Shown in pieces: positions 1 to 64,000 of a stretch of 64,000 nucleotides of DNA; position 1 is the first letter of the stretch, and every line of letters begins with the position of its first letter. Source of the DNA: Crambe crambe (Eukaryota > Porifera > Demospongiae > Poecilosclerida > Crambeidae). Position numbers and translations under genes: made by a program. Under the pieces are notes generated by a model that saw nothing but the letters and a program-made list of their open reading frames with translations, did no database searches and had not been told where the DNA came from. The DNA is taken from assembly GCA_963924555.1 (NCBI GenBank), contig OZ004584.1, positions 6,323,001 to 6,387,000 of the forward strand, written 5' to 3'.

Positions 1-926
1 AGTTAGTCTATTGATGTTTTAGTCTTATGAAATGCCACATTTCTAAATGTTGGACTTTTAGAAGCTGCCTGGCAATGGCAGAGTTTCCATAACTAAACTA
101 TCAAAATCAATGATGATAAGAAGATGAAAAGTGTGTCTTTTGAGGCTGTATATGAAGCAAGAGTACTCCAATTCAAAATCCACTGTGCTGGTCTCACATA
201 TCATGTATAAGCACATGAATTAACTAATTATTGTAATAATGTGTGAATGGTATTTTCCAGCCTATAGGTCAAGCATTACTTTGTTCTATTGAATTTGTCC
301 CACTATGGAAATAGCTATACGTACATTAGTTTATAAAGTATGACTAAATAGATATAATATTATAGTGTCTGTCTTTGGGGCGAAATATGAAGCAAAAACA
401 AAATTGTGCTGATTTCCTAAATTATTTTCAGAAGAGTTTTTGGCATTCGAGTTGTGGTAGCTACGTAAACATGTTTTTCAGTTTCAAAGATGATCCTTAT
501 CCACTGTATCATAACTTGTGACATATAGTGGATAATATTGAACATTATATTAATAGTCCTGTAAATATAATTTCAGTTTTGGGGGGGGGGGGGGGGGGCA
601 AAATGCCCCTTTGCCTACAGATAAAAAAAAATCTGTCTATCCAAGGAAACTATACATGACAGGCCAGGATACTTCAGTTTTTGAGCACCATGAATAGTGA
701 CACATCAGGAGAGCCATGTTCTAATGAGGCACTAGCTATAGCTCAATCATGAAGGTCCATAAGGGAGAGGAATTTTGTGGCATTGAATATTGAATAGTCG
801 TCCCTGACAGCACTTTAATCTCAACAGCTATTGAAGTATACAAAAATTTTTTTTCTAAAAAAAGAAGAAAGACTCTCTATCTATTATATGCATCATTGTT
901 TATAAAACAGGAGGATAAGTTGCATT
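1..926. other. Intergenic: 5' flank of an off-window paralog, then 3' flank of R1
   Basis: The first ~500 bases match the 5' flank of R4 (from about 9257), including the TTAGTCTTATG..AATGCC stretch that lies about 33 bases upstream of the R4 start codon. Another minus-strand family member therefore probably starts just left of the window. Positions 590-840 match 24640-24890 (AAATGCCCCTTTTGCCTAC and following). No coding sequence is seen. Confidence 0.6.
581..598. repeat. Poly-G tract, 18 bases
   Basis: An uninterrupted run of 18 G sits in the 3' flank of R1. The same position in related flanks (near 24640 and 56130) lacks the run, so it is a local expansion. Assemblies often get the length of such runs wrong. 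Confidence 0.9.
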
Positions 927-2276
927 CTATTGTACATAAAGCTCCAACAGCTGGACAGGTGTATCATCTGAATTTCCATGATTACAGATCCTGACCTCCA
1001 GGTCATCAGTGGTGGACTGGGTGAGGGTCTTACAGAACCAAGGAGGCTTGTTGAATCGGCAGCAGGTGCTATCGGAACCACACCCATGGCCGTCCCAGAG
1101 AGGGTCATTGGAGTGGAAGATACCCGGGATTTTCTTAAGATGATTGCCGGAGTCACAGAAGTAATCCTCTCCTACAAATAAAGTTGAATTTGTCCAGTTG
1201 TTGCTGTTACTGCATGCACATAGCCAATATGTGCGAAAGGGACCTTCTTCACCAATAGCACTGGCAAAGGACCAGATATGTTGACGAGACCCCACACTGC
1301 CGTGAGTCAGAGAGACACCATCAACATACGGTTCATCTATATCAGAGTAGAAGACTAGTCCCTTAAAGGCGTCAGTGTTTCCATTTTGATAGGCTATTAT
1401 GCGTCCACACACACGACCATAGGTCAGTCCAAAAGTGGAGTAGAATACTGAATCGCAACTGGTTTCATTCTTTATCACTCTTCCACATGTCCTCACAGGG
1501 GTAGAGATGGTGGTCCAGTTGCTGGGACAAACCTGGTTGGGGTCTGACATGTTGAGGAATGCCACACGAGTCCATCCACTTGGTCCATCACAACCACACT
1601 TCTTGTTGAACTCACAGTACACACGCACAGCAGAGCCATTGGAGGACTTGATCCAGTAGTGACCTGATGGGGAGGAGGAATTCAACTGCAAGATATGGGG
1701 ACATGAAGTAGCAGGTAAGTTTGAATATTGTCCACTCAGTGATTGAATGATATTATAATCAGAAGACAAAAATCGTGAAACATTACTTCGGAGATCATTT
1801 ACAGAGTTCTGGAGCTGCAGGATTCTTCCTTCAAGTTCTGATGTTCTATCATTCATAGAAACTTGTAGTCTTTTGAGTTCAAATTTGCTGCTGTTCATGT
1901 AAGTCTGAAGCATAGTTATCATCCGATCATATTTAGCAGCATTAGATATGCTATCATTTATAGCCGTTTTTTGATTGTTGACTTGTGAGATATTCCACAC
2001 TGTAAGAGCCAAGCTAGCAAATGTTGCACTACCTACTAAGATGAATCCAACTAGTCCACACATGCACAACCAACTACGAACAGGCTTCTTCAACTTGGAC
2101 TTATCTTGACGAGGAGCTGCTGATGTGGACACACTTACTGGTGTAAACTTCGATGGCATTTCATACTGGGAATTCCCATCACAGGACACAACAGGAGTTG
2201 ATGGCATTTGATACTGAGAATTACCTCCCCCAGCTCCCTTGAGATTTGGCAATTCATAAATGTGTTCCTCTTCCAT
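927..2276 (-). CDS. R1: class A type II transmembrane receptor-like protein, 449 aa
   Basis: Single-exon, intact. The start at 2276 is the family start (MEEEH) in a good Kozak context (ACCATGG). The cytoplasmic tail is unusual in holding three Y-x-x-P motifs (YELP at 7, YQMP at 21, YEMP at 38) instead of two. A basic KSKLKKP patch precedes one transmembrane helix at about 69-93. The stalk (about 95-190) is the NDSISN-type helix shared with R4, R23 and R31, with several N-glycosylation sites. The head starts near SCPHIL and has the fibrinogen-like SGHYWIKSSNGSAVRVYC segment, then the Cys-rich class A region ending DLEVRIC...LELYVQ. A cell-surface recognition role is inferred from the architecture only; the ligand is unknown. 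Confidence 0.88.
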   Translation of the reverse strand: MEEEHIYELPNLKGAGGGNSQYQMPSTPVVSCDGNSQYEMPSKFTPVSVSTSAAPRQDKSKLKKPVRSWLCMCGLVGFILVGSATFASLALTVWNISQVNNQKTAINDSISNAAKYDRMITMLQTYMNSSKFELKRLQVSMNDRTSELEGRILQLQNSVNDLRSNVSRFLSSDYNIIQSLSGQYSNLPATSCPHILQLNSSSPSGHYWIKSSNGSAVRVYCEFNKKCGCDGPSGWTRVAFLNMSDPNQVCPSNWTTISTPVRTCGRVIKNETSCDSVFYSTFGLTYGRVCGRIIAYQNGNTDAFKGLVFYSDIDEPYVDGVSLTHGSVGSRQHIWSFASAIGEEGPFRTYWLCACSNSNNWTNSTLFVGEDYFCDSGNHLKKIPGIFHSNDPLWDGHGCGSDSTCCRFNKPPWFCKTLTQSTTDDLEVRICNHGNSDDTPVQLLELYVQ

Positions 2277-3062
2277 GGTTTAACTCGGAGAAGCTCGAAG
2301 TTCTATATTGATCTTTTAGTCTTATGCAATGCTAGTATTGGTGCAAAAATAAGGACTTTTAAGCCAAAAAAATCTGTTTACAGGTCTTATATTAACAGTG
2401 TTTTCATAACTATATATAATAAATTATAAAATGATGTATAAAGCATGTACGTATGCACATGAAACAAAAAGTATAAAGTTCACTGTGGTTGATCTAATAT
2501 ATCTCTCTCTTCTCTGATCAAAGTGAATGGTATAAATCCAGCAACGTTACTTGGTTGTTGACCCACTATGCAAATAGCTACATGATTTCATGTCTTTGGG
2601 GCTGAATATGAAGCAAAAAAGCAACAACAAAAAACAGGAAGTTCAATATGCTGACTCCAAATGTAAACTATTGGCTGAAACTCTTGAATACAAGCAAATA
2701 TCACTACATTTTAGGTATGGGGGCATGAAGTAGAGTGTACACTAAACTCTGGGACTGTAAGTTGCAAATCTATTCTTTCATGTAAGGGGAAATAGGCACA
2801 CAAAACCAAAACAGGCTAAAACAGGCTGGTATGGGTGTTCTAGCAGCAAAAAAATTTGCTTCTTGCACGAGTAAGGTGATGAAATTACTAGCTATGCTAT
2901 GGACCACAAGCTCGGAATAACAAGTGGTGAGGGCAAGATGGCCAGAGATCTATAAACTTCTTCCACACAAGTCCTGTACTAAGGGATGAGTTCATGGAAC
3001 TAATGAACACATACACAACCAATTAACTATAAATATACATTAGATACCGAGACCAAGGGATC

Positions 3063-3655: not shown

Positions 3656-4903
3656 TTACTGGACATACAGTTCCACGAGCTGAATAGGTATATCTTCATC
3701 ACTAGCAGTTTTACAGATCCTGACTTCCAGGTCATCAGTGGTGGACTGGGGGAGGGTCTTGCAAAACCATGGAGGGTTGTTGAACTGGCAGCAGGTGCTG
3801 GAAGGACCACATCCCTGGCCGTCCCAGAGAGGGTCACCATTGTAAAATATAGTAGAAGATGTTGTACTAGCATGGTTGCCAGAGTCACAGAAGTAGTCAT
3901 TTCCAACGAAAGATGTTGAATATGGCCAAGGATAGCTGCTACTGCATGCACAAATAAAGCCTGAAGAGATCACTTCTCCTCCAGCACTGACGAATGACCA
4001 GATATGTTGTCGAGATCCATCACTGCCATGAGTCAGGGAGACACCATCAATGTAGGTTTCATTGATGCTATATCCAGAATTAAAAGCATCAGGAATGCCA
4101 TGTTGATAAGCTATTATGCGTCCACACACTCGAGTATAGGTCATTCTAAAAGTGGAATAGAACACTGAATTGCAACATCTTCCACTGATCTTTCCCATAC
4201 CACATGTCCTCACGGGGGAAGCAATGGTGGTCCAGTTGCTGGGACAGACCTGGTTGGGGTCGGACATGTTGAGGAAGGCCACACGAGTCCACCCACTTGG
4301 TCCATCACAACCGCACTGCCGGTTGAAGTCACAGTACACATGCACAGCAGAGCCATTGGAGGACCTGATCCAGTAGTGACCTGATGGGGAGGAGGGATTC
4401 AACAAGATTTGGGAACACGAAGAAGCAGGATTGATTGAGTCTCTTCCAAGCAGACTATATGACAATTGTTCGATGCGATCATTTAGAGAATTTTGTATCT
4501 GCACTATTCTTTCAAGCTCAGATGCACTATCATTCAGAGAATTCTGAAGCTGCTTTATTATACTTTTACATTCAGATATGCTACCATTCACAGAATTTTC
4601 AAGTCCAGATATAGTGTTCTGAAGCTGCATTGTCATGTGCTCCATCTCAAGCTTAGCACTCTGGTGGTTGACTTGTAAAGAATTCCACACTGTAAAAGCC
4701 AAGCTAATAAATGCTGCACTACCTACTAAGATGAATCCAACTAGTGCACACATGCACAACCAACTATAAATAGGCTTCTTCAACTTAGATTTGGATGTAG
4801 AAATTGTTACACTTTTAGGTTCAAATTCTTCATAGCATGGATTGTTCTTCAAGGAGATAGCACCTTCTGAATTTGGGAATTCATAGACATGTTCTTCTTC
4901 CAT
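3656..4903 (-). CDS. R2: class A type II transmembrane receptor-like protein, 415 aa
   Basis: Single-exon and complete, starting MEEEH at 4903. The tail carries a YEFP motif and a second, altered YEEF motif, a variant shared only with R3. KSKLKKP precedes the transmembrane helix (about 47-72). The stalk contains ISGLENSVNGSISE-type modules. The head runs from SCSQIL through the fibrinogen-like YWIRSSNGSAVHVYC to DLEVRIC and LVELYVQ. The promoter-side flank (4904-5090) is duplicated upstream of R3, so R2 and R3 arose as a tandem pair. The function is inferred only as cell-surface binding. Confidence 0.88.
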   Translation of the reverse strand: MEEEHVYEFPNSEGAISLKNNPCYEEFEPKSVTISTSKSKLKKPIYSWLCMCALVGFILVGSAAFISLAFTVWNSLQVNHQSAKLEMEHMTMQLQNTISGLENSVNGSISECKSIIKQLQNSLNDSASELERIVQIQNSLNDRIEQLSYSLLGRDSINPASSCSQILLNPSSPSGHYWIRSSNGSAVHVYCDFNRQCGCDGPSGWTRVAFLNMSDPNQVCPSNWTTIASPVRTCGMGKISGRCCNSVFYSTFRMTYTRVCGRIIAYQHGIPDAFNSGYSINETYIDGVSLTHGSDGSRQHIWSFVSAGGEVISSGFICACSSSYPWPYSTSFVGNDYFCDSGNHASTTSSTIFYNGDPLWDGQGCGPSSTCCQFNNPPWFCKTLPQSTTDDLEVRICKTASDEDIPIQLVELYVQ

Positions 4904-4971: not shown

Positions 4972-5769
4972 TTACAAACATAAATAACTGCATAGTGACA
5001 CAATCCTCACTCCTATCCAACTGGAGAGAGTCAATGGAGCAGTAAGGGGAGGGGCCACAGAACTATAAAATGATGATGTCAGTCTGAGCTGTCTTTCCAC
5101 TTTTCCACATGTCCTCACAGGGGTAGAGATTGTGGTCCACTTGCTGGGACAGACCTGGTTGGGGTCGGACATGTTGAGGAAGGCCACACGAGTCCATGCA
5201 CTTGGTCCATCACAACCACACTGCCTGTTGAACTCACAGTACACACGCACAGCAGAGCCATTGGAGGACCTGATCCAGTAGTGACTTGATGGAGAGGAGA
5301 GGTTAAACAGCAAGACATGGGAACATGAAGAAGCAGGATTGATTGAGTTCCTTCCAAGGAGACTGTATAGTTCGATGCAATCATTTAGAGAGTTTTGTAT
5401 CTGCAATATTCTTTCAAGCTCAGATGCACTATCATTCAGAGAATTCTGAAGCTGCTTTATTATACTTTTACATTCAGATATGCTACCATTCACAGAATTT
5501 TCAAGTCCAGATATAGTGTTCTGAAGCCGATGGTTGACTTGTGAAGAATTCCACACTGTAAGAGCCAAGCTAGCAAATGCTGCACTACCTACTAAGATGA
5601 ATCCAACTAGTGCACACATGCACAACCAACTATAAATAGGCTTCTTCCATTTAGATTTGGATGTAGAAACCGTTACACTTTTAGGTTCAAATTCTTCATA
5701 GAATGGATTCTTCTTCAAGGAGATAGCGCCTTCTGAATTTGGGAATTCATAGACATGTTCTTCTTCCAT
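4972..5769 (-). CDS. R3: truncated class A receptor-like protein, head cut short by a duplication breakpoint
   Basis: The family start MEEEHVYEF is at 5769; an in-frame ATG 15 bases further upstream is less likely. Tail, transmembrane helix, a short stalk (one ISGLE module plus linker) and the start of the head are intact up to PVRTCGK. The frame then leaves the family and continues about 40 codons through sequence homologous to the R3 5' flank (compare 4980-5090 with 5836-5945). About 190 residues of Cys-rich head are missing. The result is a shortened ectodomain with an unrelated tail, most likely a non-functional or altered by-product of unequal crossing-over. Confidence 0.75.
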   Translation of the reverse strand: MEEEHVYEFPNSEGAISLKKNPFYEEFEPKSVTVSTSKSKWKKPIYSWLCMCALVGFILVGSAAFASLALTVWNSSQVNHRLQNTISGLENSVNGSISECKSIIKQLQNSLNDSASELERILQIQNSLNDCIELYSLLGRNSINPASSCSHVLLFNLSSPSSHYWIRSSNGSAVRVYCEFNRQCGCDGPSAWTRVAFLNMSDPNQVCPSKWTTISTPVRTCGKVERQLRLTSSFYSSVAPPLTAPLTLSSWIGVRIVSLCSYLCL

Positions 5770-6479
5770 GATTAAGTTCAACATGCTACAAAATTATTTA
5801 ACTTTGCGGTCAATTAAACAATTGTTTTTACAAACGTAAATAACTGCATAGTGACACAATCCTCATTCCTATCCAACTGGAGAGAGACAATGGAGCAGTA
5901 AGCGGAGGGGCCACAGAACTATTCTATGATGATGTCCCTCTGAGCTGGAATATGAACAAGCTAACATTCACCAACTAGATGTGATCAGATGTGAGAAGGA
6001 GATGGTGAAAGATTAAGTAATATTAAAAGCATCAGGAAACCCATTATTATATGTGACTCAATTAGGAAAAGGGACTACTTCACGCAAGATACATTTTTGA
6101 GGTTTAAACTTGCCATAGATAAAAAAATCTTTTATCCACTTCTTTTTTCTTGCCTCCACAGTATCTTCAGTCCTTTATCTAACTTCCTGCTAAATTTCAG
6201 GAAGTGGGAAGGCTTTTAAGTGGACAAGTGCTCGAGTTAAAGTCACCTACGTGCCCAAATTTCAATTACGGAGGATGCATGAGCATATTGAGCAAATAAG
6301 GGAAATTCCCCACACATATTGATGATTTCTAACTACAGATAGGAAGAGATTGTGGTAGGAGCCATCCATCTTCACAGGTCAGAAGATCCAGATCTATAGG
6401 TGTTGGATTAGGACAGTTGAAACACTGGCCTGATCCTACCAGTGTCTAGATTCCAACTCAGAGTAACACTGCTTCCACT

Positions 6480-7910: not shown

Positions 7911-9224
7911 CTATTGTACATAAAGCTCCAACAGCTGGACAGGTGTATCATCTGAATTTCCATGATTACAGAGCCTGACCTCCAGGTCATCAGTGGTGGA
8001 CTGGGTGAGGGTCTTACAGAACCAAGGAGGCTTGTTGAATTGGCAGCAGGTGCTATCAGAACCACACCCCTGGCCGTCCCAGAGAAGGTCCTTGGAGTGG
8101 AAGATACCCGGGATTTTGTTAAGATGATTGCCGGAGTCACAGAAGTAATCCTTTCCAACGAATAAAGTTGAATTGGTCCAGTTATTGCTGTTACTGCATG
8201 CACATAGCCAATATGTTTGAAAGGGACCTTCTTCTCCGATAGCACTGGCAAAGGACCAGATATGTTGACGAGACCCCACGCTGCCATGAGTCAGAGAGAC
8301 ACCATCAACATACGGTTGATCTATACCAGAGTAGAAGACTAGTCCCTTAAAGGCGTCGGTGTTTCCATTTTGATAGGCCATTATGCGTCCACACACACGA
8401 CTATAGGTCAGTCCAAAAGTGGAGTAAAACACTGAATCGCAACTGGTTTCATTCTTTCTCACTTTTCCACATGTCCTCACAGGGGTAGAGATTGTGGTCC
8501 AGTTGCTGGGACAGACCTGGTTGGGGTCTGACATGTTGAGGAAGGCCACACGAGCCCACCCACTTGGTCCATCACAACCACACTGCCTGTTGAAGTCACA
8601 GTACACACGCACAGCAGAGCCATTGGAGGACCTGATCCAGTAGTGATCTGATGGGGAGAATAGCAAAATTTGGGAACATGAAGCAGCAGGTAAGTTTGAA
8701 TACTGTCCACTCAGTGATTGAATGATATTATTTATCTCAGAAGACAATGATCGTGAAACATTACTTTGGGATTCGTAGTGATCATTCACAGAGTTCTGGA
8801 GCTGCAGGATTCTTTGTTCAAGTTCTGATGTGCTATTGTTCATAGAAACTTGTAGTCTTTTGAGTTCTAATTTGCTGCTGTTCATGAGAGTCTGAAGCAT
8901 AGTTATCATCTGATCGAATTTAGCAGCATTAGATATGCTATCATTTATAGCCATTTTCTGAAGGTTGACTTGTGAGATATTCCACACTGTAAGAGCCAAG
9001 CTAGCAAATGCTGGACTACCTACTAAGATGAATGCACACATCCACAACCAACTACAAACAGGCTTCTTCAACTTGGATTTATTTTGAGGAGGAGTTGCTG
9101 ATGTAGACGTATTCACTGCAGTATAAACATCGCAAGGACTGTCATACTGAGAATTCCCAGCCTGAGATGTGATAGATTCCTTGAGAAGTAATTCGTAAGC
9201 ATGTTCAGTGTGTTTCTCTTCCAT
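7911..9224 (-). CDS. R4: class A type II transmembrane receptor-like protein, 437 aa
   Basis: Single-exon, complete. It is the closest relative of R1 in stalk, head and 3' flank. The N-terminus (MEEKHTEHAYELLLKES) has lost the proline of the first tyrosine motif, and the second reads YDSP, so the tail motifs are degenerate. A few residues are missing at the start of the membrane helix (CSWLWMCAFILVG). The stalk carries NDSISNAAKFDQM and many N-glycosylation sites. The head has one deletion before YWIRSSNGS (LFSPSDHYW) and is otherwise class A to DLEVRLC and LLELYVQ. Confidence 0.87.
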   Translation of the reverse strand: MEEKHTEHAYELLLKESITSQAGNSQYDSPCDVYTAVNTSTSATPPQNKSKLKKPVCSWLWMCAFILVGSPAFASLALTVWNISQVNLQKMAINDSISNAAKFDQMITMLQTLMNSSKLELKRLQVSMNNSTSELEQRILQLQNSVNDHYESQSNVSRSLSSEINNIIQSLSGQYSNLPAASCSQILLFSPSDHYWIRSSNGSAVRVYCDFNRQCGCDGPSGWARVAFLNMSDPNQVCPSNWTTISTPVRTCGKVRKNETSCDSVFYSTFGLTYSRVCGRIMAYQNGNTDAFKGLVFYSGIDQPYVDGVSLTHGSVGSRQHIWSFASAIGEEGPFQTYWLCACSNSNNWTNSTLFVGKDYFCDSGNHLNKIPGIFHSKDLLWDGQGCGSDSTCCQFNKPPWFCKTLTQSTTDDLEVRLCNHGNSDDTPVQLLELYVQ

Positions 9225-10307: not shown

Positions 10308-11703
10308 TCACTGGACATAAACTTCAAATGCTTGAATTGCAATGTCTTCATCATCATGAGGTTGGTCACAACACACTCTCATCTCTATGTTGTCAGAGGC
10401 GAGTTCTGGAAGCCATCTGTAGAACCATGGAGGATCACTGTGAGTGCAATTCACATTGAACCCACAGTCTTCCCCAACCCATAGAGGAGATTCCTCATAA
10501 CACCCATCACGATATGTGCTGAGAATTCCACCACAAAAATAACTGTTTTCAACAAATGAAGGTTGAATAGAATCACACTGCCCCATACCTATACAATACT
10601 CAACATGACTGTAACAGATTAAAATAGTGGGGGGTTTGTAATACAGTTCCCATACATTTCAGCCCACAGTAACATTAAAATGTATACTTTAATTTACCAA
10701 AATGGTCAGCAGCAAAAGTCCAAATGTGCTGCCTCATGGGAGGCACTCCATAGGTTAGACTCACACCATCAACATAGTTAGAGTTGATCTCAAGGGGCCT
10801 CTGTCTTCCATGATGAGAAAATGCATCAGGTGTCCTATATTGATAGGCTCTGATCATCCCACATACATGGGTATAGTGAAGACCATGTGAAGTGTAACTA
10901 TTTGAAGAACATTTTCCATTTGGAGAGTTTGTACCAATTTCACATGTTGGTTCAGAATTGCAACTATCCCCCATCCTGAGACCACTGGGACACTGGCTAC
11001 TGTTGTCTCTCATGTCCAGATCAGCCACTCTCATCCACCCTCCAGTGATGTTACCACATGACCTGGTCATGTCACAATACACACGTACAGCAGAGCCATT
11101 GGAGGATCTGATCCAGTAGTGACCTGATGGAGAGGAGGGATTCATCTGCAAGATATGTGAACAGGAAGCAGCAGGGTTCAACTGTAGTAGGATATCATCA
11201 ATTCTTATTTCCAATGATCTTGAAACATTTGCTTGAAGTTCATTGAGATCATTAACAGAATTTTGAAGCTGTTTTATTCTTCTTTCATATTCAGATACGC
11301 TACCATTCACAGTAGTATCAAGTCCAACTATAAAATTCTGAAGCAATGTTGTTCTTCTTTCATATTCAGATATACTACTGTTCACAGAAAATTTAAGTCC
11401 AGATAGAGACCTCTGAAGCTGAACTATAACAGAACTCCGATGGTTGACTTGTGAGATATTCCACACTGTAAGAGCCAAGCTAGCAAATGCTGCACTACCT
11501 ACTAAGATGAATCCAACTAGTGCACACATCCACAACCAACTACTAACAGGCTTCTTCAACTTGGACTTATCTTGATGAGGAGTAACTGATGCATTCACAT
11601 TTCCTGAAGTACAATTAGATGGAATTTCATACTGAGAATTCACATCACAGGATGCAACAGCTTCCTTGAGATTTGGTAATTCATAAGTGTGTTCCTCTTC
11701 CAT
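10308..11703 (-). CDS. R5: class B type II transmembrane receptor-like protein, two exons, 428 aa
   Basis: Exon 1 is 10698-11703 and exon 2 is 10308-10588. The intron is 109 bp with donor G|GTAAAT and acceptor TATAG|GT, phase 1; the joined frame is exactly 429 codons with stop. The tail has YELP and YEIP. The transmembrane helix is at about 55-81. The stalk has three SSISEYERR or NGSVSEYERR modules. The class B head reads YCDMTRSCGNITGGWMRVA, then NYVDGVSLTYG, HIWTFAADHFG, and in exon 2 SYFCGG, DIEMRVCCDQ-like sequence (here NIEMRVCCDQ) and FEVYVQ. The splice sites are at identical positions in R8, psi20, psi21 and R26, which supports the model. Confidence 0.87.
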
Positions 11704-13457: not shown

Positions 13458-13978
13458 TACTGAACATACAGCTCTACAAGCTGGACAGGTATGTCTTCAT
13501 CAGTACCACCCTGACTTCCAGGTCATCAGTGGTGGACTGGGATAGGGTCTTGGAGGGTTGTTGAACTGGCAGCAGGTACTGGAGGGACTACATAACTGGC
13601 CATCCTAGAGAGGATCACCAGAGTAGAAGGTAGAGCTGGGAGATGTACTTCTATTGTTACCGTCGTTTGGCTGCATGAAGTTATTACAACTTTTGAATGC
13701 ACAAATTGAAGATTCGTATCTAGCATTGACAAAAGACCAGATGTGTTGTCGAGATCTAATACTGCCATGAGTGAGAGAGAGAGACCATCCATATAGGTCC
13801 ATCAATTAGACTGGAACATGAGGAGTAACCATCAGGAATGCAAGCTATTATATGTCCACACACACGACTATAGGTAAGTGGAATAGAATACCAAAACTTC
13901 TGTTCTGTGTCCTTCCACATGTCCTTACAGGGGTAGAAATGGTGGTCCAGTTTCTGGGACAGACCTGGTTGGGGTCAT
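13458..13978 (-). pseudogene. psi6: class A head remnant
   Basis: Class A C-terminal sequence is recognisable (SRQHIWSFVNARYESSICA and LVELYVQ-type end) but frameshifted several times. Part of the C-terminal coding sequence is deleted near 13500 and 13550. It stops abruptly at DPNQVC-like sequence, so tail, membrane helix, stalk and the start of the head are absent. It is the counterpart of psi16 (32732-33655), and its nearest intact relative is R11. Confidence 0.85.
13765..13769. other. Empty insertion site matching the solo LTR at 33060-33432
   Basis: psi6 has a single CCATG here. The duplicate psi16 has CCATG on both sides of a 373-bp insertion (33055-33059 and 33433-33437). This is the pre-insertion allele. 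Confidence 0.8.
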
Positions 13979-16680: not shown

Positions 16681-16754
16681 CTGGACGTAAAATTCAAATG
16701 CTTGAATTGCAATATCTTCATCTTTGTGAAGTTGGTCACAACACACTCTCATCT

Positions 16755-48289: not shown

Positions 48290-49404
48290 CTACTGGACAT
48301 AAAGTTCCACAAGCTGAATAGGTATATCTTCATCATTAGCAGTTTTACAGATCCTGACCTCCAGGTCATTAGTGGTGGACTGGGGGAGGGTCTTGCAGAA
48401 CCATGGAGGGTTGTTGAACTGGCAGCAGGTGCTAGAGCTGGCCATCCCAGAGAGGATCACCATTGTAGAATGTAGATATAGAGGTTGTATGTATTAACAT
48501 GGTTGCCAGAGTCACAGAAGTAGTCCTCTCCAACGAAAGATGTAGAATGTGGCATAGGATTGCTACTACTGCATGCACAAATCTGGTGTTGTTTCTCCTC
48601 CAGCACTGACAAATGACCAGATGTGTTGTCAATGCCATGAGTCAGGGAGACACCATCAAGATAAATTCCATTGATATCACTTCCAGTAGCATCAGGTGAG
48701 CCATGTTGATAAGCTATTATGCGTCCACACACACGAGTATAGGTCATTCCAAAAGTGGAATAGAATACTGAATTGCGACCTCTTCCATTGCTCAGTCCCC
48801 TCCCACATGTCCTCACAGGGGAAGAGATGTATGTCCAGTTGCTGAGACAGACCTGGTTGGGGTCTGACACAAGTCCACATACTTGGTCCATCACAACCAC
48901 ACTGCCTGTTGAAGTCACAGTACACACGTACAGCAGAGCCATTGGAGGACTTGATCCAGTAGTGATCTGATGGGGAGGAGGAATTAAATAACAAGATATA
49001 GAAACATGAAGAAGCAGGATTGATTGAGTTCCTTCCAAGCAGACTGTATAGTTCAATATGATCATTTAGAGAATTTGGCATCTGCACTATTCTTTCAAGC
49101 TCAAATGCACTACCATTCAGAGAATTCTGAATCTCCAGTACTGTTCTTTTAAGATCAGATATGCTACCATGCACAGAAACATCAAGCTGCATTATAACCA
49201 TCTGAAGCTTAGCACTCTGTTGATTGACTTGTGAAGAATTCCACACTGTAAGAGCCAAGCTGCACTACCTACTAAGATGAATCCAACCAGTGCACACATC
49301 ATGCACAACCAACTACAAACAGGCTTCTTTTTCAACTTGGAGTTATCTGAATGATGTGGACACACTTGCTAGTGTAAAATTTGATGAAAGTTCATCATTA
49401 GAAG
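48290..49404 (-). pseudogene. psi25: duplicate of psi19
   Basis: Carries the same 11-bp deletion, the same loss of the FLNMSDPNQ start and the same missing start region as psi19, so the gene was broken before the block duplicated. A few substitutions separate the two. Confidence 0.88.
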
Positions 49405-49655: not shown

Positions 49656-51221
49656 TCACTGGATGTAAATTTCAAATGCTTGAATCGCGATGTCTTCATC
49701 ATTGTGAGGTTGGTCACAACACACTCTCATCTCTATGTCATCAGAGGTGAGTTCTGGAAGTTGTCTGTAGAACCATGGAGGAGTGCAGTCCACATTGGAC
49801 CCACAGTCTTCCCCATCCCATAGAGGAGATGCCTCGTAACAGCCAGCATTTCCTGTGCTACGAACTCCATCACAAAAATAATTGTTTTGAACAAATGAAG
49901 GTCGATTAGAGTCACAGTGCCTCATATCTATGCAATATTCCACACAATTGTAACACATTAATTATAGTGTGAAGGAAAATATTGCGGTTTTCAGTAAATA
50001 AAATTTACTATTATGGTTTCTACTTTTCACCCACAAAAATTCCCTGCCATGAGGTAGCTAGTGAATAATTAACAATTTACCTGAATAGTAAGCAGCAAAA
50101 GTCCAAATGTGTTGCCTCAAGGGAGGCACTCCATGAGTCAGACTCACACCATCAACATAGTTGGAGTTTATATTGGCTGACATCCCTCTGTTATTGCCTC
50201 TAAATGCATCGACTGTCCTAAACTGATAGGCTCTGATCATCCCACATACATGGGAATAGTTGAGACCATGTGAAGTGTAACTATTTGACGAACATTTTCC
50301 ACTTGGAGAGTTTGTACCAATTTCACAAGTTCGTTCAGAAGTGCAACTATCCCCCTGCCTGAGACCACTGGGACATTGGCTACTGCTATCTCTCATGTCC
50401 AGATCAGCCACTCTCATCCACCCTCCAGTGACTCCACCACACGACCTGGTCATGTCACAGTACACACGTACAGAAGAGCCATTGGAGGACCTGATCCAGT
50501 AGTGACCTGATGGGGAGGAGGGATTCAACTGCAAGACACATGAACAGGAGTCAGCAGGGTTCAATCGTAGTAGGATATCAATTTGTCCTGAAACACTTGC
50601 TTGAAGCTCATTGAGATTATTAACAGAAATTTGAAGCTGATTTATTCTTCTTTCATATTCAGATATGCTACCATTCACAGAAGTTTCAAGTCCAAATATA
50701 GAATTCTGAAGCTGCATTACTCTTTCTTCAAGTTCAGTAATATTAACATTCACAGAAGTATCAATAGATATCTGAACCTGGTTTATTCTTCTTTCATATT
50801 CAGATATGCTACCATTGACAGAAAATTCAAGTCCAGATAGAGAATTCTGAAGCTGTGTTATTCTTCCTTCATATTCAGATATGCTACCATTCACAGAAAT
50901 TTCAAGTTCAAATAGAGATTTCTGAAGCTGCGTTATCATGTGCTCCATCTCAAGCTTAGCACTCTGATGGTTGACTTGTGAAGAATTCCACACTGTAAGA
51001 GCCAAGCTAGTAAATGATGCACTACCTACTAAGATGAATCCAACTAGTGCACACATGCACAACAGACTACAAACAGGCTTCTTCAACTTGGACTTATCTT
51101 GACCAGGAGTTGTCAATGTAGACACACTTGCTGGAGTAAACTTTGATGGAATTTCATACTGGGAATTCCCTTCCACAGCTTCCTTAAGATTTGGCAATTC
51201 ATAAGTGTGTTCCTCTTGCAT
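49656..51221 (-). CDS. R26: class B receptor-like protein, two exons, 470 aa
   Basis: Exon 1 is 50081-51221 and exon 2 is 49656-49927; intron 153 bp, donor CAG|GTAAAT, acceptor GCATAG|AT, phase 1, joined frame 471 codons. The ATG at 51221 (MQEEHTYELP) is preferred over a TTG seven codons upstream. Tail YELP and YEIP. The stalk has four modules (for example NSLSGLEFSVNGSISEYERR and NSIFGLETSVNGSISEYERR) plus a NNLNELQASVSGQ helix. The head has GGVTGGWMRVADLDMRDSSS, then NYVDGVSLTHG; exon 2 ends DIEMRVCCDQ and FEIYIQ. It is the intact counterpart of psi20, but with an R17-like tail. Confidence 0.9.
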
Positions 51222-52223: not shown

Positions 52224-52307
52224 AACCTTAGTAAGCCTTAGTAAAGCCTTAGTAAAACCTTAGTAAAACCTTAGTAAAACCTTAGTAAAACCAAACCTTA
52301 GTAAATA
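52224..52307. repeat. Tandem repeat, 11-bp unit CCTTAGTAAAA
   Basis: Seven to eight copies, some shortened, in the 3' flank of psi28. Confidence 0.9.
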
Positions 52308-52329
52308 TTTGTAAAACAGGAGGATAAGT

Positions 52330-53032
52330 TAATTGCATTCTGTTGCACATAAAGCTCCAACAGCTGGACAGGTGTATCATCTCCTGACCTCAAGGTCATC
52401 ATCAGTGATAGACTGAGGGAGAGTCTTACAGAACCATGGAGGGTTGTTGAACTGGCAGCAGGTGCTATTGGAACCACACCCCTGGCCGTCACAAAGATAC
52501 CTGGAACAACCTTAAAATGATTGCCGGAGTCACAGAAGTAATCCTTTCCAACAAAAGAAGTTGAATGTGGCCAGTTATTGCCGTTACTGCATGCACATAG
52601 CCACCATGTGCGAAAGGGACCTTCTTCACCGAGAGCACTGGCAATTCTGTGCTATTCTTTCAAGCTCAGATGCACTATCATTCAGAAAATTATGATGCTA
52701 CCATTTACAGAAGTTTTAAGTCCAGATATAGTGTTCTGAAGCTGCATTATCATGTGCTCTATCTCAAACTTAGCACTCTGATGGTTGACTTGTGAAGAAT
52801 TCCACACTGTAAGAGCCAAGCTAGCAAATGCTGCACTACCTACTAAGATGAATCCAACTAGTGCACACATGCACAACCAACTACTAACAGGCTTCTTCAA
52901 CTTGGACTTATCTTGATGAGGAGTAGCTGATGTGGACACACTTGCTGGTGTAGAATTTGATGGAATATCATACTCGGAATTCTTATCACGTCCCTCGAGA
53001 TTTGGTAGTTCATAAATGTGTTCCTCTTGCAT
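52330..53032 (-). pseudogene. psi28: class A gene with most of the head deleted
   Basis: The 5' part (52682-53032) is open: MQEEHIYELP, YDIP, KSKLKKP, helix, first stalk module, then a frameshift (GSIIIF). The 3' part (52330-52640) keeps LLELYVQ-type end, PWFCKTL and the FVGKDYFCDSG region with deletions. The section from mid-stalk through the fibrinogen-like segment to the HIWSFASA region is gone. A product of 116 residues could be made from the 5' part. Confidence 0.82.
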
Positions 53033-54335
53033 GGTTCAAATGATAGCAAAGTTCTTTGATGGCTATATGTCTCCTGATCTTTTCTGAGCAATATATTGGA
53101 ATTTTTCCTTTGGGATTTATGTATACGTGACCTAAATCCGACTATTTTTGTATAATTATACCCAAAAAATCATGTGATTGACTATTGATAATTGGGTGAG
53201 CGCCACACCAGTGATGACAACCTTGTATGAATATATTGTACATACACTCTAGATCCAATGTTTGGTTATTCGATATCATGAATGTGAAAACTATGGCCTC
53301 ACATAATAAGAAATCAAGTCTATAATGATGGAGTCCACATCTTAAACACTATAACTGCATGAAGATTTGTTTCCATTGAAAGCAGTCAGTACTGGTGATT
53401 AACTGTCATCGAAGTTCAAAGGTCACTGTGGTGGCCTCATAAACTACTAAATTAATGGGTGTGGCGATCATGCACATGGGCACATCACATGATTTACACA
53501 TGCTCATCAATCATCACAGACTGCATGTACTATTACATCAATGTAATATCATAACCACCTTGTGCACAAATGTGTGTAGCTATCATGTGAACATTGTGCC
53601 TTTGGACACCTTGCCAACTTGGACAGGTCACATGATTTACACATGCTTGTTAGAGTCACCACTATAGCTATAGATTGTGAAGTATTTAGTAGAAAATTTC
53701 TGCTGGCAAACAGTAAAAGATATACTTAGCAGCCCTACACAGTGAAAACAGATCCCAAGATAAATCATCATAATATTTTTCTGTCTCAGTAACATAAATG
53801 TTTATAATTTGTTTATTATAATTATTTCATATAAATATGAAAATGATGCATATAATTACAAGATAACATTATCAGCAATGATAATCCATTTCTTTCAGTG
53901 TAGCTACATGCGCGTGATTTCTGGTCCCACCCAATCGAGGCATGGGGTCATAGTAAAAAAAAAAAAAATGCATGTTACATAATGGTCTGCAATAATTATT
54001 ATGTAATACAGTTCACATGCTATAACTTACTGTACATCAATTACATACCAATTAAGTTGCTATAAAGTGGATATAGCAAAAGGAGTTAAGAAACAATCCA
54101 CAAAAAATTAATATTTTAGCTATATTATATTTTTGCTAAAATTAGTCAGGGAGTGGTGGTACTGTGTGGAATTAGTCAGGGAGTGGTGGTACTGTGTGAA
54201 ATTGAACATCAAATAGTGGAACTTTAAGTGAATTTTTATCTCAAATTAAACAGATACTAAAAAATGCACACAAAAAAAAAACAAAAAAGACAAAAAGTAA
54301 CCAACAAACCAAAAGACTCTCTATTAAGTTGCATT
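53033..54335. other. Intergenic: psi28 5' flank and R29 3' flank
   Basis: A short direct repeat around CACATGATTTACACATGCT occurs near 53487 and 53632, and a 30-bp direct repeat at 54140. No coding sequence is supported. Confidence 0.55.
54140..54200. repeat. 30-bp direct repeat, two copies
   Basis: ATTAGTCAGGGAGTGGTGGT plus the next 10 bases, repeated once head to tail. Confidence 0.9.
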
Positions 54336-55646
54336 CTATTGTACATAGAGCTCCAACAGCTGGACCGGTGTATCATCAGAATTGCCACTATTACAGATCC
54401 TGACCTCCAGGTCATCAGTGGTGGACTGAGGGAGAGTCTTACAGAACCATGGAGGGTTATTGAGCTGGCAACAGGTGCTATTGGAACCACACCCCTGGCC
54501 GTCCCAGAGAGGATCATTGGAGTGGAACATAAGTGGAATAGCCTTAAGATGATTGCCAGAGTCACAGAAGTAATCGTTTCCAATAAAAGAAGTCGAATGT
54601 GGCCAGTTATTGCTGTTACTGCATGCACATAACCACCATGTGCGAAAGGGACCTTCTTCACCGAGAGCACTGGCAAAGGACCAGATATGTTGACGAGACC
54701 CCACACTGCCATGAGTCAGAGAGACACCATCAACATACGGCTGATCTATATGAGAGGAGTGGACTAGTCCCTTAAAGGCGTCAGTGTTTCCATATTGATA
54801 GGCTATTATGTGTCCACACACACGACTATAAGTCAGTCCAAAAGTGGAGTAGAACACTGAATTGCAACTACTGTTCCTCCCACATGTCCTCACGGGGGAA
54901 GCGATGGTGGTCCAGTTGCTGGGACAGACCTGGTTGGGGTCTGACATGTTGAGGAAGGCCACACGAGTCCACCCACTTGATCCATCACAACCACACTGCC
55001 TGTTGAAGTCACAGTACACACGCACAGCAGAGCCATTGGAGGACCTGATCCAGTAGTGACCTGATGGGGAGGAGGAATTCAACAGCAAGATTTGGGAACA
55101 TGAAGCAGCAGGATTAATTGAGTCTCTTCCAATGCGATCATTTAGAGAATTTTGTATCTGCACTATTCTTTCAAGCTCAGATGTACTATCATTCAGAGAA
55201 TTCTGAAGCTGCACTATACTTCCTTTAAGTTCAGATATGCTACAATTCACAGAAATTTCAAGTCCAGATATAGAATTCTGAAGCTGTGTTAGTCTTCTTT
55301 CATACTCAGATATGCTACCATTCACAAGTCCAGATAGAGATCTCTGAAGCTGCATTATAACCATCTCAAGCTTAGCACCCTGATGGTTGACTTGTGAAGA
55401 ATTCCACACTGTAAGAGCCAAGCTAGCAAATGCTGCACTACCTACTAAGATGAATCCAACTAGTGCACACATGCACAACAAACTACAAACAGGCTTCTTC
55501 AACTTGAACTTATCTTGATGAGGAGCTGCTGATTCAGACACACTTACTGGTGTGAACTTTGATGGCATTTCATACTGTGAATTCCCTTCCCTGGATGCAA
55601 CAGCTTCCTTGAGATTTGGCAATTCATAAATGTGTTCCTCTTCCAT
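54336..55646 (-). CDS. R29: class A receptor-like protein, 436 aa
   Basis: Single exon, intact, MEEEHIYELP at 55646. Tail YELP and YEMP. KFKLKKP replaces KSKLKKP before the helix. The stalk has a shortened SGLVNGSISEYERR module, then ISGLEISVNCSISE (an unusual Cys in place of Gly) and NDSTSELERIVQIQNSLNDR. The head is of the FKGLVHSSHIDQPYVDGV subtype and complete to DLEVRIC and LLELYVQ. A stalk Cys could allow a covalent dimer; this is inference. Confidence 0.9.
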   Translation of the reverse strand: MEEEHIYELPNLKEAVASREGNSQYEMPSKFTPVSVSESAAPHQDKFKLKKPVCSLLCMCALVGFILVGSAAFASLALTVWNSSQVNHQGAKLEMVIMQLQRSLSGLVNGSISEYERRLTQLQNSISGLEISVNCSISELKGSIVQLQNSLNDSTSELERIVQIQNSLNDRIGRDSINPAASCSQILLLNSSSPSGHYWIRSSNGSAVRVYCDFNRQCGCDGSSGWTRVAFLNMSDPNQVCPSNWTTIASPVRTCGRNSSCNSVFYSTFGLTYSRVCGHIIAYQYGNTDAFKGLVHSSHIDQPYVDGVSLTHGSVGSRQHIWSFASALGEEGPFRTWWLCACSNSNNWPHSTSFIGNDYFCDSGNHLKAIPLMFHSNDPLWDGQGCGSNSTCCQLNNPPWFCKTLPQSTTDDLEVRICNSGNSDDTPVQLLELYVQ

Positions 55647-59000: not shown

Positions 59001-59184
59001 CTATGACTGCAGCATCATATCAAACAAAACCCTAAGATGCAGCATCATATCAAACCAAACCCCCTATGGTGCAGCATCATATCAAACCAAACCCTATGGT
59101 GCAGCACCATATCAAACAAAACCCTATGGTGCAGCATCATATCAAACCAAACCCACTATGGTGCAGCATCATATCAAATCACAT
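59001..59184. repeat. Minisatellite, six copies of a 30-33 bp unit
   Basis: The unit reads TGCAGCATCATATCAAACCA followed by AACCCTATGG. Copies differ by a few bases. It is followed by ACATTTTTATTTAGAAGAAA, which resembles the end of the palindrome element, so the array probably expanded inside an old copy of it. Confidence 0.9.
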
Positions 59185-59519: not shown

Positions 59520-60836
59520 TTATTGGACATACAGCTCTACAAGCTGGATAGGTATATCTTCATCATTATAATTCTTACATATCCTGACCTCCAGGTCATC
59601 AGTGGTGGAATGAGGGAGGGTCTTACAGAACCATGGAGGGTTGTTGAAGTGGCAGCAGGCACTGGAGGGACCACAACCCTGACCATCCCAGAGAGGGTCA
59701 TCAGAGTAGAATGTAGTTGTAGATGATGCATTAGCATGGTTGCCAGAGTCACAGAAGTAGTCATCTCCGACGAAAGATGTTGAATGTGGCCAAGGATTGC
59801 TGCTACTGCATGCACAAATGGAAGCGCTTTCAAAGAAGCTTCCTTCTCCTCCAGCACTGACAAAGGACCAAATATGTTGCCAAGATCCATCACTGCCATG
59901 AGTCAGGGAGACACCATCGAGATAGGTTCCATTGATATAAAGTTCAGGATTAAAAGCATCAGGAAAGCCATCTTGATAAGCCATTATACGTCCACACACA
60001 CGAGTATAGGTCATCCCATAAGTGGAATAGAACACTGAACTGACACCACCACTATTGGTCCGTCCCCTCCCACATGTCCTCACAGAGGAAGCGATGGTGG
60101 TCCAGTTGCTGGGACAGATCTGGTTGGGGTCTGACATGTTGAGGAAGGCCACACGAGTCCACCCACTTGGTCCATCACAACCACACTGCCTGTTGAAGTC
60201 ACAGTACACACGTACAACGGAGCCATTGGAGGACCTGATCCAGTAGTGACCTGATGGGGAAGAGGAATTCAACAGCAAGATTTGGGAACATGAAGCAGCT
60301 GGTAAGTTTGAATACTGTCCACTCAGTGATTGAATGATATTATTTATTTCAGACGACAAAGATCTTGAAATATTACTTTGGAATTCATTGTGATCATTCA
60401 CAGAGTTCTGGAGCTGCAGGATTTGTTGTTCAAGTTCTGACGTGCTATCATTCATAGAAACCTGTATGCTTTCGAGTTTGTATTTGCTGCTGTTTATGAA
60501 TGTCTGCAGCATAGTTATAATCTGATCAAATTTAGCAGCATTAGATATGCTATCATTTATAGCCATTTTCTGATGGTTGACTTGTGAGATATTCCACACC
60601 GTAAGAGCCAAGCTAGCAAATGCTGCACTACCTACTAAGATGAATCCAACTAGTGCACATATCCACAACCAACTACAAACAGGCTTCTTCAACTTGGACT
60701 TATCTTGATGAGGAGCTGCTGATGCGGACACACTTACTGGTGTAAACTTTGACGGCATTTGATACTGGGAATTCCCTTCCCAGGACGCTACAGCTTCCTT
60801 GAGATTTGGCAATTCATAAATGTGTTCTTCTTCCAT
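59520..60836 (-). CDS. R31: class A receptor-like protein, 438 aa
   Basis: Single exon, intact, MEEEHIYELP at 60836. The first ~80 residues (YELP, YQMP, helix) are almost identical to R23. The NDSISN-type stalk also matches R23 and R4, with NHQKMA retained. The head differs: LYINGTYLDGV and GEGSFFESASICACSSS segments. The GCNSVF Cys is replaced (GGVSSVF), the same loss as in R23. Ends LVELYVQ, with the stop inside CAATAAAA, so the hexamer AATAAA overlaps the stop codon. Confidence 0.9.
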   Translation of the reverse strand: MEEEHIYELPNLKEAVASWEGNSQYQMPSKFTPVSVSASAAPHQDKSKLKKPVCSWLWICALVGFILVGSAAFASLALTVWNISQVNHQKMAINDSISNAAKFDQIITMLQTFINSSKYKLESIQVSMNDSTSELEQQILQLQNSVNDHNEFQSNISRSLSSEINNIIQSLSGQYSNLPAASCSQILLLNSSSPSGHYWIRSSNGSVVRVYCDFNRQCGCDGPSGWTRVAFLNMSDPNQICPSNWTTIASSVRTCGRGRTNSGGVSSVFYSTYGMTYTRVCGRIMAYQDGFPDAFNPELYINGTYLDGVSLTHGSDGSWQHIWSFVSAGGEGSFFESASICACSSSNPWPHSTSFVGDDYFCDSGNHANASSTTTFYSDDPLWDGQGCGPSSACCHFNNPPWFCKTLPHSTTDDLEVRICKNYNDEDIPIQLVELYVQ

Positions 60837-61775: not shown

Positions 61776-61992
61776 ACCATAAGTGAATTGCTCTTGGGAT
61801 TGCATAATTATGAAACTCCATAAATGTATCATTATAAAGACTGTTACGTAGAATCGCTTTCAAGTGATTAATAAACTTTGAAAGATTATAATAATAATCT
61901 GGATGAATACAGATCTAGCTAAAAGGTTATTTATCATAACTTACAGTATGTGTATCCTCTACATATTATCATGAAGTGACATGTGTGATAAA
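61776..61992. other. Intergenic, same as 46659-46860
   Basis: Collinear with the sequence after psi24 up to AGTGACATGTGTGATAAAG, where psi33 begins abruptly. Confidence 0.6.
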
Positions 61993-62560
61993 GCAGGGGC
62001 CTTCTTCACCGAGAGCACTGGCAAAGGACCAGATATGTTGACGAGACTCCACACTGCCACGAGTCAGAGAGACACCATCAAAATACGGCTGATCTATATG
62101 AGAGGAGTGGACTAGTCCCATAAAGACGTCAGTGTTTCCATTTGATTGTCCACACACACGACTATAGGTCAGTCCAAAAGTGGAATAGAATGTTGATTTA
62201 CAGCCACCATTGCTGGGACAGACCTGGTTGGACCCTGACATGTTGAGAAAGGCCACACGAGTCCATGTACTTGGTCCATCACAACCACACTGCCTGTTGA
62301 AGTCACAGTACACACGCACAGCAGAACCATTGGAGGACTTGATCCAGTAGTGACCAGATGGGGAGGAGGAATGAAATAAAAAGACATGGGAACATGAAGA
62401 AACAGGATTGATCGAGTTCCTTCCAAGCAGACTACATGACAATTGTCTCTGAAGTTCAATGCAATCATTTAGAGAATTCTGTATCTGTGCTATTCTTTCC
62501 AACTCTAATGCATGCACTATCATTCACAGATTTCTCAAGTCCAGATAGAGATTTCTGAAG
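61993..62560 (-). pseudogene. psi33: class A fragment, stalk to mid-head
   Basis: Open from about 62523 to 61969 but incomplete at both ends. No start, tail or helix; it begins in stalk (ELERIAQIQNSLNDC). The fibrinogen-like YWIKSSNGSAVRVYC is intact. A deletion removes WTT...GRGQ between QVCPSN and GGCKSTFYS, another cuts VCGQSNGN. Head sequence ends at FASALGEEGP, where it joins the 61776-61992 flank. Confidence 0.82.
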
Positions 62561-62851
62561 CAAACATGCAGTTTTTGTGTAAATATCTTATATGTAGTTT
62601 ACAAATTTAATGTGCAGTGATTACCTTGGGTAAACTGCATGATCATGCATTACTGAATCAAAAGTACAAGTGGTATCATCTATGCATACATCTGTAGGTT
62701 AGGCCATGAGTGGAATTGAATATCAAATAGCAACCATTGATAGTGAATCTACATGTAATCTCAAAGATTAATGAACTACTAAAGTATAGGTGAGTGAGAG
62801 AGAGAGAGAGAGACGGCAAAAAGGCTTTCTACCAGTTATAATTATTATATT
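62561..62851. other. Intergenic: R34 3' flank
   Basis: Includes a short (GA)n run at about 62788-62811. No gene. Confidence 0.55.
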
Positions 62852-64000
62852 CTATTGTACATAAAGCTCTAACAGCTGGATAGGTATATCATCTAAACTT
62901 CCATGATTACAGATCCTGACCTCCAGGTCGTCAGTGGTGGAATGGGGGAGGGTCTTACAGAACCATGGAGGGTTGTTGAACTGGCAGCAGGTGCTGGAGG
63001 GACCACACCCCTGGCCGTCCCAGAGAGGGTCGTCGGAGAAGAAAATATTTGGAATAATACGACCATGATTACCGGAGTCACAGAAGTAATCATTTCCAAC
63101 AAATGCAGTCGAATGTGGCCAGTTACTGCTGTTACTGCATTCACATAGCCATGCTGTATGAAAGGAGCCTCTTTCTCCGATAGCACTGGCAAAGGACCAG
63201 ATATGCTCTCGAGATCCCACACTGCCATGAGTCAGGGAGACACCATCAACATATGGTCCTTCAATCTGACGGGAGGCGAAGACTAGTCCAAAAAAGGCGT
63301 CAGTATTTCTATCTTGATAGGCTATTATGCGTCCACACACGCGATAATAGGTCAGTCCAAAAGTGGAATAGAACGTTGATTCGCAACTACCGTTGCTATT
63401 TTGTCCCCTCCCACATGTCCTCACGGGGGAAGCGATGGTGGTCCAGTTGCTGGGACAGACCTGGTTGGGATCTGACATGTTGAGGAAAGCCACACGAATC
63501 CACCCACTTGATCCATCACAACCACACTGCCTGTTGAAGTCACAGTACACACGCACAGCAGAGCTATTGGAGGACCTGATCCAGTAGTGACCTGATGGGG
63601 AGGAGAGGTTAAACAGCAAGATATGGGAACATGAAGAAGCAGGATTGATTAAGTTCCTTCCAAGCAGTTCGATGCGATCATTTAGAGAATTTTGTATGTG
63701 CATTATTCCTTCAAGCTCAGATGCACTATCATTCAGTGAATTCTGAAGCTGCTTTATCATACTTTTACATTCTGATATGCTACCATTCACAGAATTTTCA
63801 AGTCCAGATATAGTGTTCTGAAGCTGATGGTTGACTTGTGAAGAATTCCACACTGTAAGAGCCAAGCTAGCAAATGCTGCACTACCTACTAAGATGAACC
63901 CAACTAGTGCACACATGCACAGCCAACTACAAACAGGCTTCTTCAACTCGGACTTATCTTGACGAGGAGCTGCTGATGTGGACACACTTACTGGTGTAAA
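62852..64000 (-). CDS. R34: class A receptor-like protein, 5' end beyond the window (383 codons present)
   Basis: The frame is open to the window edge, reading FTPVSVSTSAAPRQ, which is residue ~30 in relatives, so only about 30 N-terminal codons with the tyrosine motifs are missing. KSELKKP, membrane helix, a short stalk (ISGLENSVNGSISE, then NDSASELEGIMHIQNSLNDR) and a full head follow. The head subtype has FFGLVFASRQIEGPYVDGV and ECSNSSNWPHSTAFVG, also seen in fragments of psi9, psi13 and psi22. Ends DLEVRIC and LLELYVQ. Confidence 0.88.
   Translation of the reverse strand, partial: FTPVSVSTSAAPRQDKSELKKPVCSWLCMCALVGFILVGSAAFASLALTVWNSSQVNHQLQNTISGLENSVNGSISECKSMIKQLQNSLNDSASELEGIMHIQNSLNDRIELLGRNLINPASSCSHILLFNLSSPSGHYWIRSSNSSAVRVYCDFNRQCGCDGSSGWIRVAFLNMSDPNQVCPSNWTTIASPVRTCGRGQNSNGSCESTFYSTFGLTYYRVCGRIIAYQDRNTDAFFGLVFASRQIEGPYVDGVSLTHGSVGSREHIWSFASAIGERGSFHTAWLCECSNSSNWPHSTAFVGNDYFCDSGNHGRIIPNIFFSDDPLWDGQGCGPSSTCCQFNNPPWFCKTLPHSTTDDLEVRICNHGSLDDIPIQLLELYVQ

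Follow-up and report, generated by a model that had tools for sequence, protein, structure and literature searches.

FIBCD1 is a type II membrane receptor of vertebrates that carries a fibrinogen-related domain, and FREPs are secreted proteins in which a fibrinogen part is joined to immunoglobulin domains. In the mammalian NK complex, type II lectin-like receptors are clustered and vary in copy number, and their short tails carry tyrosine motifs; Hydractinia Alr is an allorecognition locus of an invertebrate. To our knowledge, the genes behind recognition in sponges are largely unidentified. Here, we analysed a stretch of 64,000 nucleotides from Crambe crambe (the window), which forms the central part of a demosponge gene cluster. 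Amphimedon queenslandica was rejected as the source on the evidence of the mitochondrial contig (19,532 bp), which contains atp9 and, by ARAGORN, 22 tRNA genes, trnR(ucu) among them. In the literature, we found no description of this family or of the array. Judged from the sequences, we lean towards reading the cluster as a diversifying set of cell-surface recognition receptors, whose most likely role in a filter feeder would be the sensing or capture of microbes and particles.

Chained profile matches identified 33 copies of one family, fragments included, in the window, all on the minus strand, in agreement with the approximately 33 one-strand copies that an earlier note had reported from the letters alone. 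The 13 intact members of that note were confirmed as well. They comprise 11 single-exon F-type genes, located (positions are those of the window, and all copies lie on its minus strand) at 927–2276 (449 aa), 3656–4903 (415 aa), 7911–9224 (437 aa), 19898–21076 (392 aa), 23004–24260 (418 aa), 25381–26817 (478 aa, with a long stalk), 33872–35284 (470 aa, also with a long stalk), 44410–45708 (432 aa), 54336–55646 (436 aa), 59520–60836 (438 aa, the copy used for the structure model) and 62852–64000, the last being cut by the window end with its start codon just beyond it and counted here because it is intact in the genome (425 aa). The other two are M-type genes with two exons each, at 10308–11703 (exons 10698–11703 and 10308–10588, intron 10589–10697) and at 49656–51221 (exons 50081–51221 and 49656–49927, intron 49928–50080); their splice sites are our proposal, and the spliced frames are open over 428 and 470 aa, respectively.

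The remaining 20 of the 33 copies are broken or fragments. Among the F-type copies, one has an in-frame stop within the head (14188–15420), one is broken into four ORF pieces (38038–39194) and one consists of two chained pieces (48293–49264). The M-type copies include one whose frame ends early near the C-terminus and in which the splice donor motif of the intact M genes was not found (16681–18083), one interrupted in the stalk (39403–40965) and one broken into two chained pieces (41441–42860). Further broken copies run from the tail through the early head only (4972–5793), fall into three ORF pieces (27272–28075), are truncated with a doubled head start (28157–29104), retain the tail, the helix and a short piece of the head (30562–30984), or lack much of the stalk and head (52301–53035). 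Head fragments are located at 13608–13805, 18856–19616 (several pieces), 32796–33128 and 43937–44128, C-terminal head fragments at 36226–36423 and 46498–46692, and a fragment of stalk and head at 61972–62523.

The whole array covers about 190 kb (6.256–6.446 Mb), extends beyond the window to both the left and the right, and brings the number of copies or fragments on the minus strand to 77. When both strands were searched, no plus-strand copy turned up within the window; the two plus-strand groups found both lie to its left. Homologues of the family amount to 3,209 proteins, with no fewer than 144 matches within the same genome, so that the family is not a product of chance.

In 11 window genes, the proteins have the receptor-like layout that had been described for them, running from an N-terminal tail through one hydrophobic helix and a helical stalk to a cysteine-rich head. 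The single helix follows the short tail (hydropathy peaks of 2.0–2.5 at residues 51–74), a lysine-rich stretch (KSKLKKP) lies on its N-terminal side, and the stalk, with 1–6 N-glycosylation sequons, and the head, with 15–18 cysteines, are C-terminal of it. No N-terminal signal peptide was seen on inspection by eye, and the proteins look like type II membrane proteins with a predicted N-inside topology. In the intact window genes, the head is preceded by the stalk, which is of the coiled-coil type, and not by the collagen triple helix that COLFI follows; no collagen Pfam match was present among the matches listed for 10 proteins (for two of them, among the best 25). In the stalk, a search pattern picked 18 units of 25 residues, with a hydrophobic residue at position 4 in all 18 and at position 22 in a fraction of 0.89. 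Because the pattern itself prescribed certain residues at positions 1, 8, 12, 15 and 19, coiled-coil spacing is independently backed by positions 4 and 22 only.

The tail carries two conserved tyrosines, the first in a YxxP/hydrophobic and the second in an NxxY context. Tyr7 is present in all 25 aligned F-type genes and Tyr25 in 23, the second tyrosine having been lost in two, and mean column conservation in the tail is 0.80. In a set of 118 sequences with predicted N-terminal tail and helix, drawn from database proteins and array genes that partly overlap, Yxx[ILVMPF] occurs in 107 and NxxY in 93. Some relatives at other places in the genome (L031 and L024 among them) are without one or both motifs. 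P0080 has the same layout and the tail VYAEV...NICYEG; it probably derives from another species because its best match in this genome is only 53% identical. The ITAM consensus is YxxI/L-x6-12-YxxI/L. It does not describe the modelled copy, in which 18 residues separate the two tyrosines and proline occupies +3 of the first.

The start of the head resembles a fibrinogen or collagen C-propeptide domain and is followed by a beta-sandwich not covered by any Pfam model. COLFI (PF01410) is the top Pfam match in nine of 10 proteins and exceeds the curated cut-off in three of the 10, the match spanning only 45–70 of 233 positions. COLFI is also the best PDB profile match (E 1.7e-5), with fibrinogen chains matched by PDB profiles as well, and the procollagen C-propeptide accounts for the first 16 fold matches of the whole-protein model, with low TM-scores (at most 0.46 among the matches listed). 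NF040941 (“fibrinogen-like YCDxxxxGGGW”) matches five of six proteins tried, scoring above the cut-off in one M-type protein (44.2 versus 30 bits), just below it in two window F-types (29.0 and 28.2 bits) and lower in P0080 and P0088; it is absent from P0058, the sixth protein. The fibrinogen-related beginning proposed for the head is thus borne out, as seen with COLFI and NF040941, but the head is not a complete domain of this kind, since none of 10 window proteins has a PF00147 match, the full fibrinogen C-terminal domain, up to an E-value of 10. The head core is also present in proteins of other layouts (P0058, P0038).

As the procollagen C-propeptide is a trimerisation domain of matrix proteins, these matches, together with the constraint on the conserved strands, would suit a family of trimeric membrane proteins that hold cells to the matrix or to each other and have expanded for dosage or tissue differences. 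However, three of the proteins tested appear to be missing from this genome (see below), and in our judgement this, together with the many decayed copies and the mosaics, exceeds what is usual for a structural family. On these grounds, and given the conserved tyrosines of the tail, we regard an adhesion or matrix role as unlikely.

The tail, stalk and head all show pN/pS below 1, which indicates constraint. Averaged over the head, the constraint is purifying, with a pooled pN/pS of 0.42, a maximum of 0.75 among 25 windows of 15 codons each, and a value of about 0.65 in seven recent duplicate pairs (mosaic pair excluded). Purifying selection across the head is the outcome that the earlier note had named as speaking against a recognition role, and in its plain form it is what the counts give, although variation is still concentrated in loops: mean entropy is 0.72 in 167 loop columns of the head versus 0.32 in 93 strand or helix columns (P 1.5e-5). 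Such an excess of variation in loops over strands also occurs in many proteins that have no recognition role. Positive selection as a driver was found neither in the pooled pairwise counts nor in the recent pairs; the ratio of 2.3 for the membrane helix in these recent pairs depends on a single synonymous change and was set aside. The helix and the head start show low silent divergence, which we read as homogenisation by exchange, with codon constraint as the alternative.

Exchange between copies is supported by 87 of 291 gene pairs that share an identical run never reached in 1000 shuffles. In one mosaic pair (genes at window positions 930 and 65603), the tails are identical while the heads differ by 70 synonymous and 102 nonsynonymous changes, which bears out the proposal of shuffled parts in a cluster with many intact and many broken copies. 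The seven largest direct blocks (2.7–7.4 kb) are 97–99% identical and show recent duplication. These near-identical blocks, and the share of broken copies in the window, could also point to a passenger expansion in which the array grows and decays through duplication and few copies are used; as the minus strand carries 31 full-length single-exon frames at 6.277–6.446 Mb, and as all three protein parts show constraint, we hold this to be very improbable.

Comparison with other sequences of the same species suggests that the array exists in more than one form. One contig, 826,340 bases long, accounts for 38 of the listed proteins. Eleven of these have a 100% identical match here, always at 6.256–6.300 Mb, whereas none of the 24 with a best match beyond 6.30 Mb does. 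When four proteins were searched genome-wide, none of P0005, P0010 and P0013 was matched at more than 86% in any part of this genome, and the fourth had a match of 94–95%. The listed proteins of two other contigs thus appear to fit two structurally different array versions with different copy sets, an argument based on contig sizes, a protein list clustered at 90% and the four genome-wide searches. Little variation in copy content had been put forward as a refutation of the recognition idea; instead, content appears to differ between the two versions.

Differing copy content would also be expected of an allorecognition locus, in which heads are matched against a neighbour's heads or other ligands and haplotype differences set fusion or rejection. 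Sponges specifically reject non-self grafts, and this specificity is taken to reflect a polymorphic genetic system (PMC5450542). The mostly purifying variation of the head, and the presence of its core in other layouts, which suggests broader tasks, make allorecognition a distinctly improbable main function.

For the favoured reading as receptors for microbes and particles, we propose the following mechanism. The protein would sit N-inside in the membrane, with the stalk gathering chains, probably into trimers, and variable loops of the head would bind glycan or protein ligands. Ligand clustering may then cause the YxxP/hydrophobic and NxxY tyrosines to be phosphorylated and SH2- or PTB-type adaptors to be recruited, trigger uptake, or do both. 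Through unequal exchange and gene conversion, copies would trade tails, stalks and heads, and individuals may thereby come to carry different sets. A bolder version, which we offer as a tentative possibility, is that the array represents an undescribed haplotype-variable type II receptor complex, in which the head domain is new and the signalling tail combines YxxP with NxxY, and that it decides self/non-self or symbiont/pathogen identity as an independently evolved analogue of the NK complex; such a complex would have been missed by Pfam-based immune surveys because the head core has no Pfam model. With its many copies, conserved tyrosine tail and apparent haplotype differences, the array is a concrete candidate locus for sponge recognition, and it illustrates that a large family can escape surveys that count known Pfam domains.

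Among described proteins, FIBCD1 shares the short N-terminal tail, the single helix, the coiled coil and a fibrinogen-like C-terminal head; the sponge family differs in its lack of PF00147 (no match at E-values up to 10 among 10 proteins), its large array and a beta-sandwich core outside Pfam. The C-propeptide of fibrillar collagens, a trimer-forming domain according to PDB titles, provides the top Pfam, PDB-profile and fold matches of the sponge head, but the resemblance is confined by the short span of the match and the low TM-scores given above. Mollusc FREPs and other fibrinogen-related immune proteins are likewise diversified families with a fibrinogen-like part, proposed to act in defence (PMC12074976), whereas the sponge proteins are predicted to be membrane-anchored and to have a coiled coil. 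The NK complex resembles the array in its clustering, its variable copy number and the tyrosine motifs that its type II receptors carry in a short tail; in contrast, the sponge head is unrelated by the searches made, and the tail motifs of the array genes are neither ITIM nor ITAM. Finally, Botryllus fuhc and Hydractinia Alr are polymorphic cell-surface genes of sessile animals, as the array genes would appear to be, but their protein families differ from that of the sponge array.

The array lies on C6, a 9.08-Mb contig of the 143-Mb genome (119 contigs), where chained family-profile matches gave 77 copies or fragments on the minus strand between 6.256 and 6.446 Mb, 33 of them in the window, which covers bases 6,323,001–6,387,000 of C6. 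With both strands examined, the plus strand of the window contained no family copies; left of the window, that strand carries three genes whose tails differ, plus a small number of fragments. The intact genes of the window comprise 11 single-exon genes, one of which extends beyond the window end, and two two-exon genes. F-type heads carry CDFNRQCG and are single-exon in the array; M-type heads carry CDMTRSCG and are proposed to contain an intron, 109 or 153 bases long. More clusters of family matches are found on C6 at about 1.2, 3.4, 4.9, 5.5, 5.9 and 7.5 Mb. Such clusters, in either orientation, are concentrated on this 9-Mb contig. Among the matches listed for an F-type query, all were on C6 except for one gene on C12, and other queries also gave matches on C1, C3, C8, C12, C15, C17 and C21. 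Genome-wide family counts are to be read as “at least”, with 88 of 749 candidates scored in one search and 105 of 612 in another.

Between two receptor genes, the minus strand at window positions 21339–22529 contains ORFs, one of which matches DUF3504 (PF12012, E 7.9e-6, under the curated cut-off). We take DUF3504 to be associated with the tyrosine-recombinase-like domain of mobile elements, and the ORFs are probably mobile-element remains with such a domain. A 30-base minisatellite of 5.6 copies, open in one plus-strand frame, lies between receptor genes at 59008–59178. Elsewhere in the genome (G000), the mitochondrial contig contains atp9 and 22 tRNA genes including trnR(ucu) (ARAGORN), a gene content that speaks for a demosponge and against Amphimedon queenslandica; nuclear ATP-synthase-C matches besides mitochondrial atp9 (G000:C20:2084965-2085144, G000:C3:2378437-2378625) may stem from gene transfer or mitochondrial insertion, or may encode other subunits.

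For evolutionary comparison we used 25 full F-type array genes out of 31 single-exon genes, six having been excluded ahead of alignment because they were divergent or had their head start doubled. Pooled pN/pS over the 25 genes was lowest in the head (0.42), followed by the tail (0.49), the stalk (0.58) and the helix (0.90). The maximum among 25 head windows was 0.75, and seven recent duplicate pairs gave about 0.65 for the head (mosaic pair subtracted). Silent divergence was about 0.04–0.06 in the helix, 0.09–0.15 at the head start and 0.2–0.57 in most remaining parts, as would be expected if exchange homogenised some modules while others stayed diverse. The genes at window position 930 and at 65603, past the window end, have identical tails and strongly different heads. 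Of 291 pairs in a run-length test, from which nine pairs more than 90% identical had been set aside, 87 shared a run longer than any in 1,000 shuffles. The seven largest direct blocks span 2.7–7.4 kb at 97–99% identity. An account of the array as a passenger expansion appears very unlikely to us.

Database homologues, assigned to their source contigs by listed contig size (826,340 vs 391,627 bases) and counted among the proteins listed (at most 120 rows) after clustering at 90% identity, fit two versions of the array. Of 38 proteins listed for the 826,340-base contig in the first search, 11 are 100% identical to the genome, all at 6.256–6.300 Mb; for 24 the best match lies in the 200 kb past 6.30 Mb and is never identical, and three match 6.296 Mb at less than full identity. 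None of six further listed proteins of this contig had an identical counterpart in the 200 kb, a stretch without runs of N. A whole-genome search with four proteins placed P0001 at 94–95% identity to two copies and gave no match above 86% for P0005, P0010 and P0013, all three from this contig. For the 391,627-base contig, 15 of 17 listed proteins are 100% identical, at 6.315–6.411 Mb, and the other two come from outside the examined stretch; because ten of the 15 are the window's own proteins, independent support comes from five (P0017, P0027, P0122, P0123, P0149). On the simplest reading, the genome would represent one haplotype up to 6.30–6.315 Mb and another beyond, the haplotypes holding different receptor copies. 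Allorecognition as the role of the array strikes us as unlikely.

The modelled copy, an intact F-type gene at window positions 59520–60836 (minus strand), has its tail at residues 1–52, helix region at 53–82, stalk at 83–178 and head at 179–438. The head-only model reached a pTM of 0.88 and a mean pLDDT of 89.1. The first 45–70 head residues match COLFI, fibrinogen and intelectin in sequence, and no noteworthy Pfam match was obtained for the ~200 residues that follow; P0058, a homologue consisting mostly of two such head cores, gave no Pfam hit with E at or below 0.01. Procollagen C-propeptides were the top structural matches (Foldseek E 5.1e-5 with the whole model and 1.1e-4 with the head on its own) with low TM-scores, and carbohydrate-binding modules and meprin scored equally well over the beta-sandwich. 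The head may be described as a COLFI/fibrinogen-like start with a predicted beta-sandwich of unsettled membership. We regard an adhesion or matrix role of the array as rather unlikely. Head variation is greater in loops than in strands, a sign of recognition that is only suggestive because such a pattern is common in proteins. In homologues P0038, P0042, P0046, P0058, P0061, P0070, P0071, P0076 and P0084, the head core occurs two or three times per protein, and the sequences read over their whole length lack the fibrinogen-like start. Others (P0063, P0086, P0088, P0092, P0105, P0113) have the same head and, replacing the tyrosine tail, an N-terminus that is signal-peptide-like by eye; these are possible secreted counterparts.

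In the tail, YELP holds Tyr7, kept in all 25 aligned genes, and NxxY holds Tyr25, kept in 23 (mean over 49 counted tail columns 0.80). Genes of other clusters have YEIV...NPCYEV and YEMI...NQCYNV tails, and some, for example L024 and L031, are without one or both motifs. Homologue P0080, with a best match of 53% in this genome, has the same layout and a VYAEV...NICYEG tail, and the two-tyrosine tail is therefore probably common to more than one species. Several copies contain 75-base tandem repeats in the stalk, each a 25-residue unit with a hydrophobic spacing of 3-4-4-3-4-3-4, i.e. 7+11+7, part of which was already included in the search pattern. With this spacing, whole units could be inserted without disrupting the coiled coil.

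No published description of the family was found in the literature searched, most subscription papers being outside its reach. A sponge immune survey (PMC12909245) tallies Pfam domains, PF00147 among them; a family lacking matches of that kind would escape that approach. The type II layout, a stalk changing by whole units, head variation focused on loops, the conserved tyrosines of the tail and the fluid organisation of the array agree with a recognition-receptor cluster, and we lean towards recognition of microbes or particles as its role. The tail motifs are similar to consensus SH2-binding, PTB-binding or uptake signals and unlike an ITAM.
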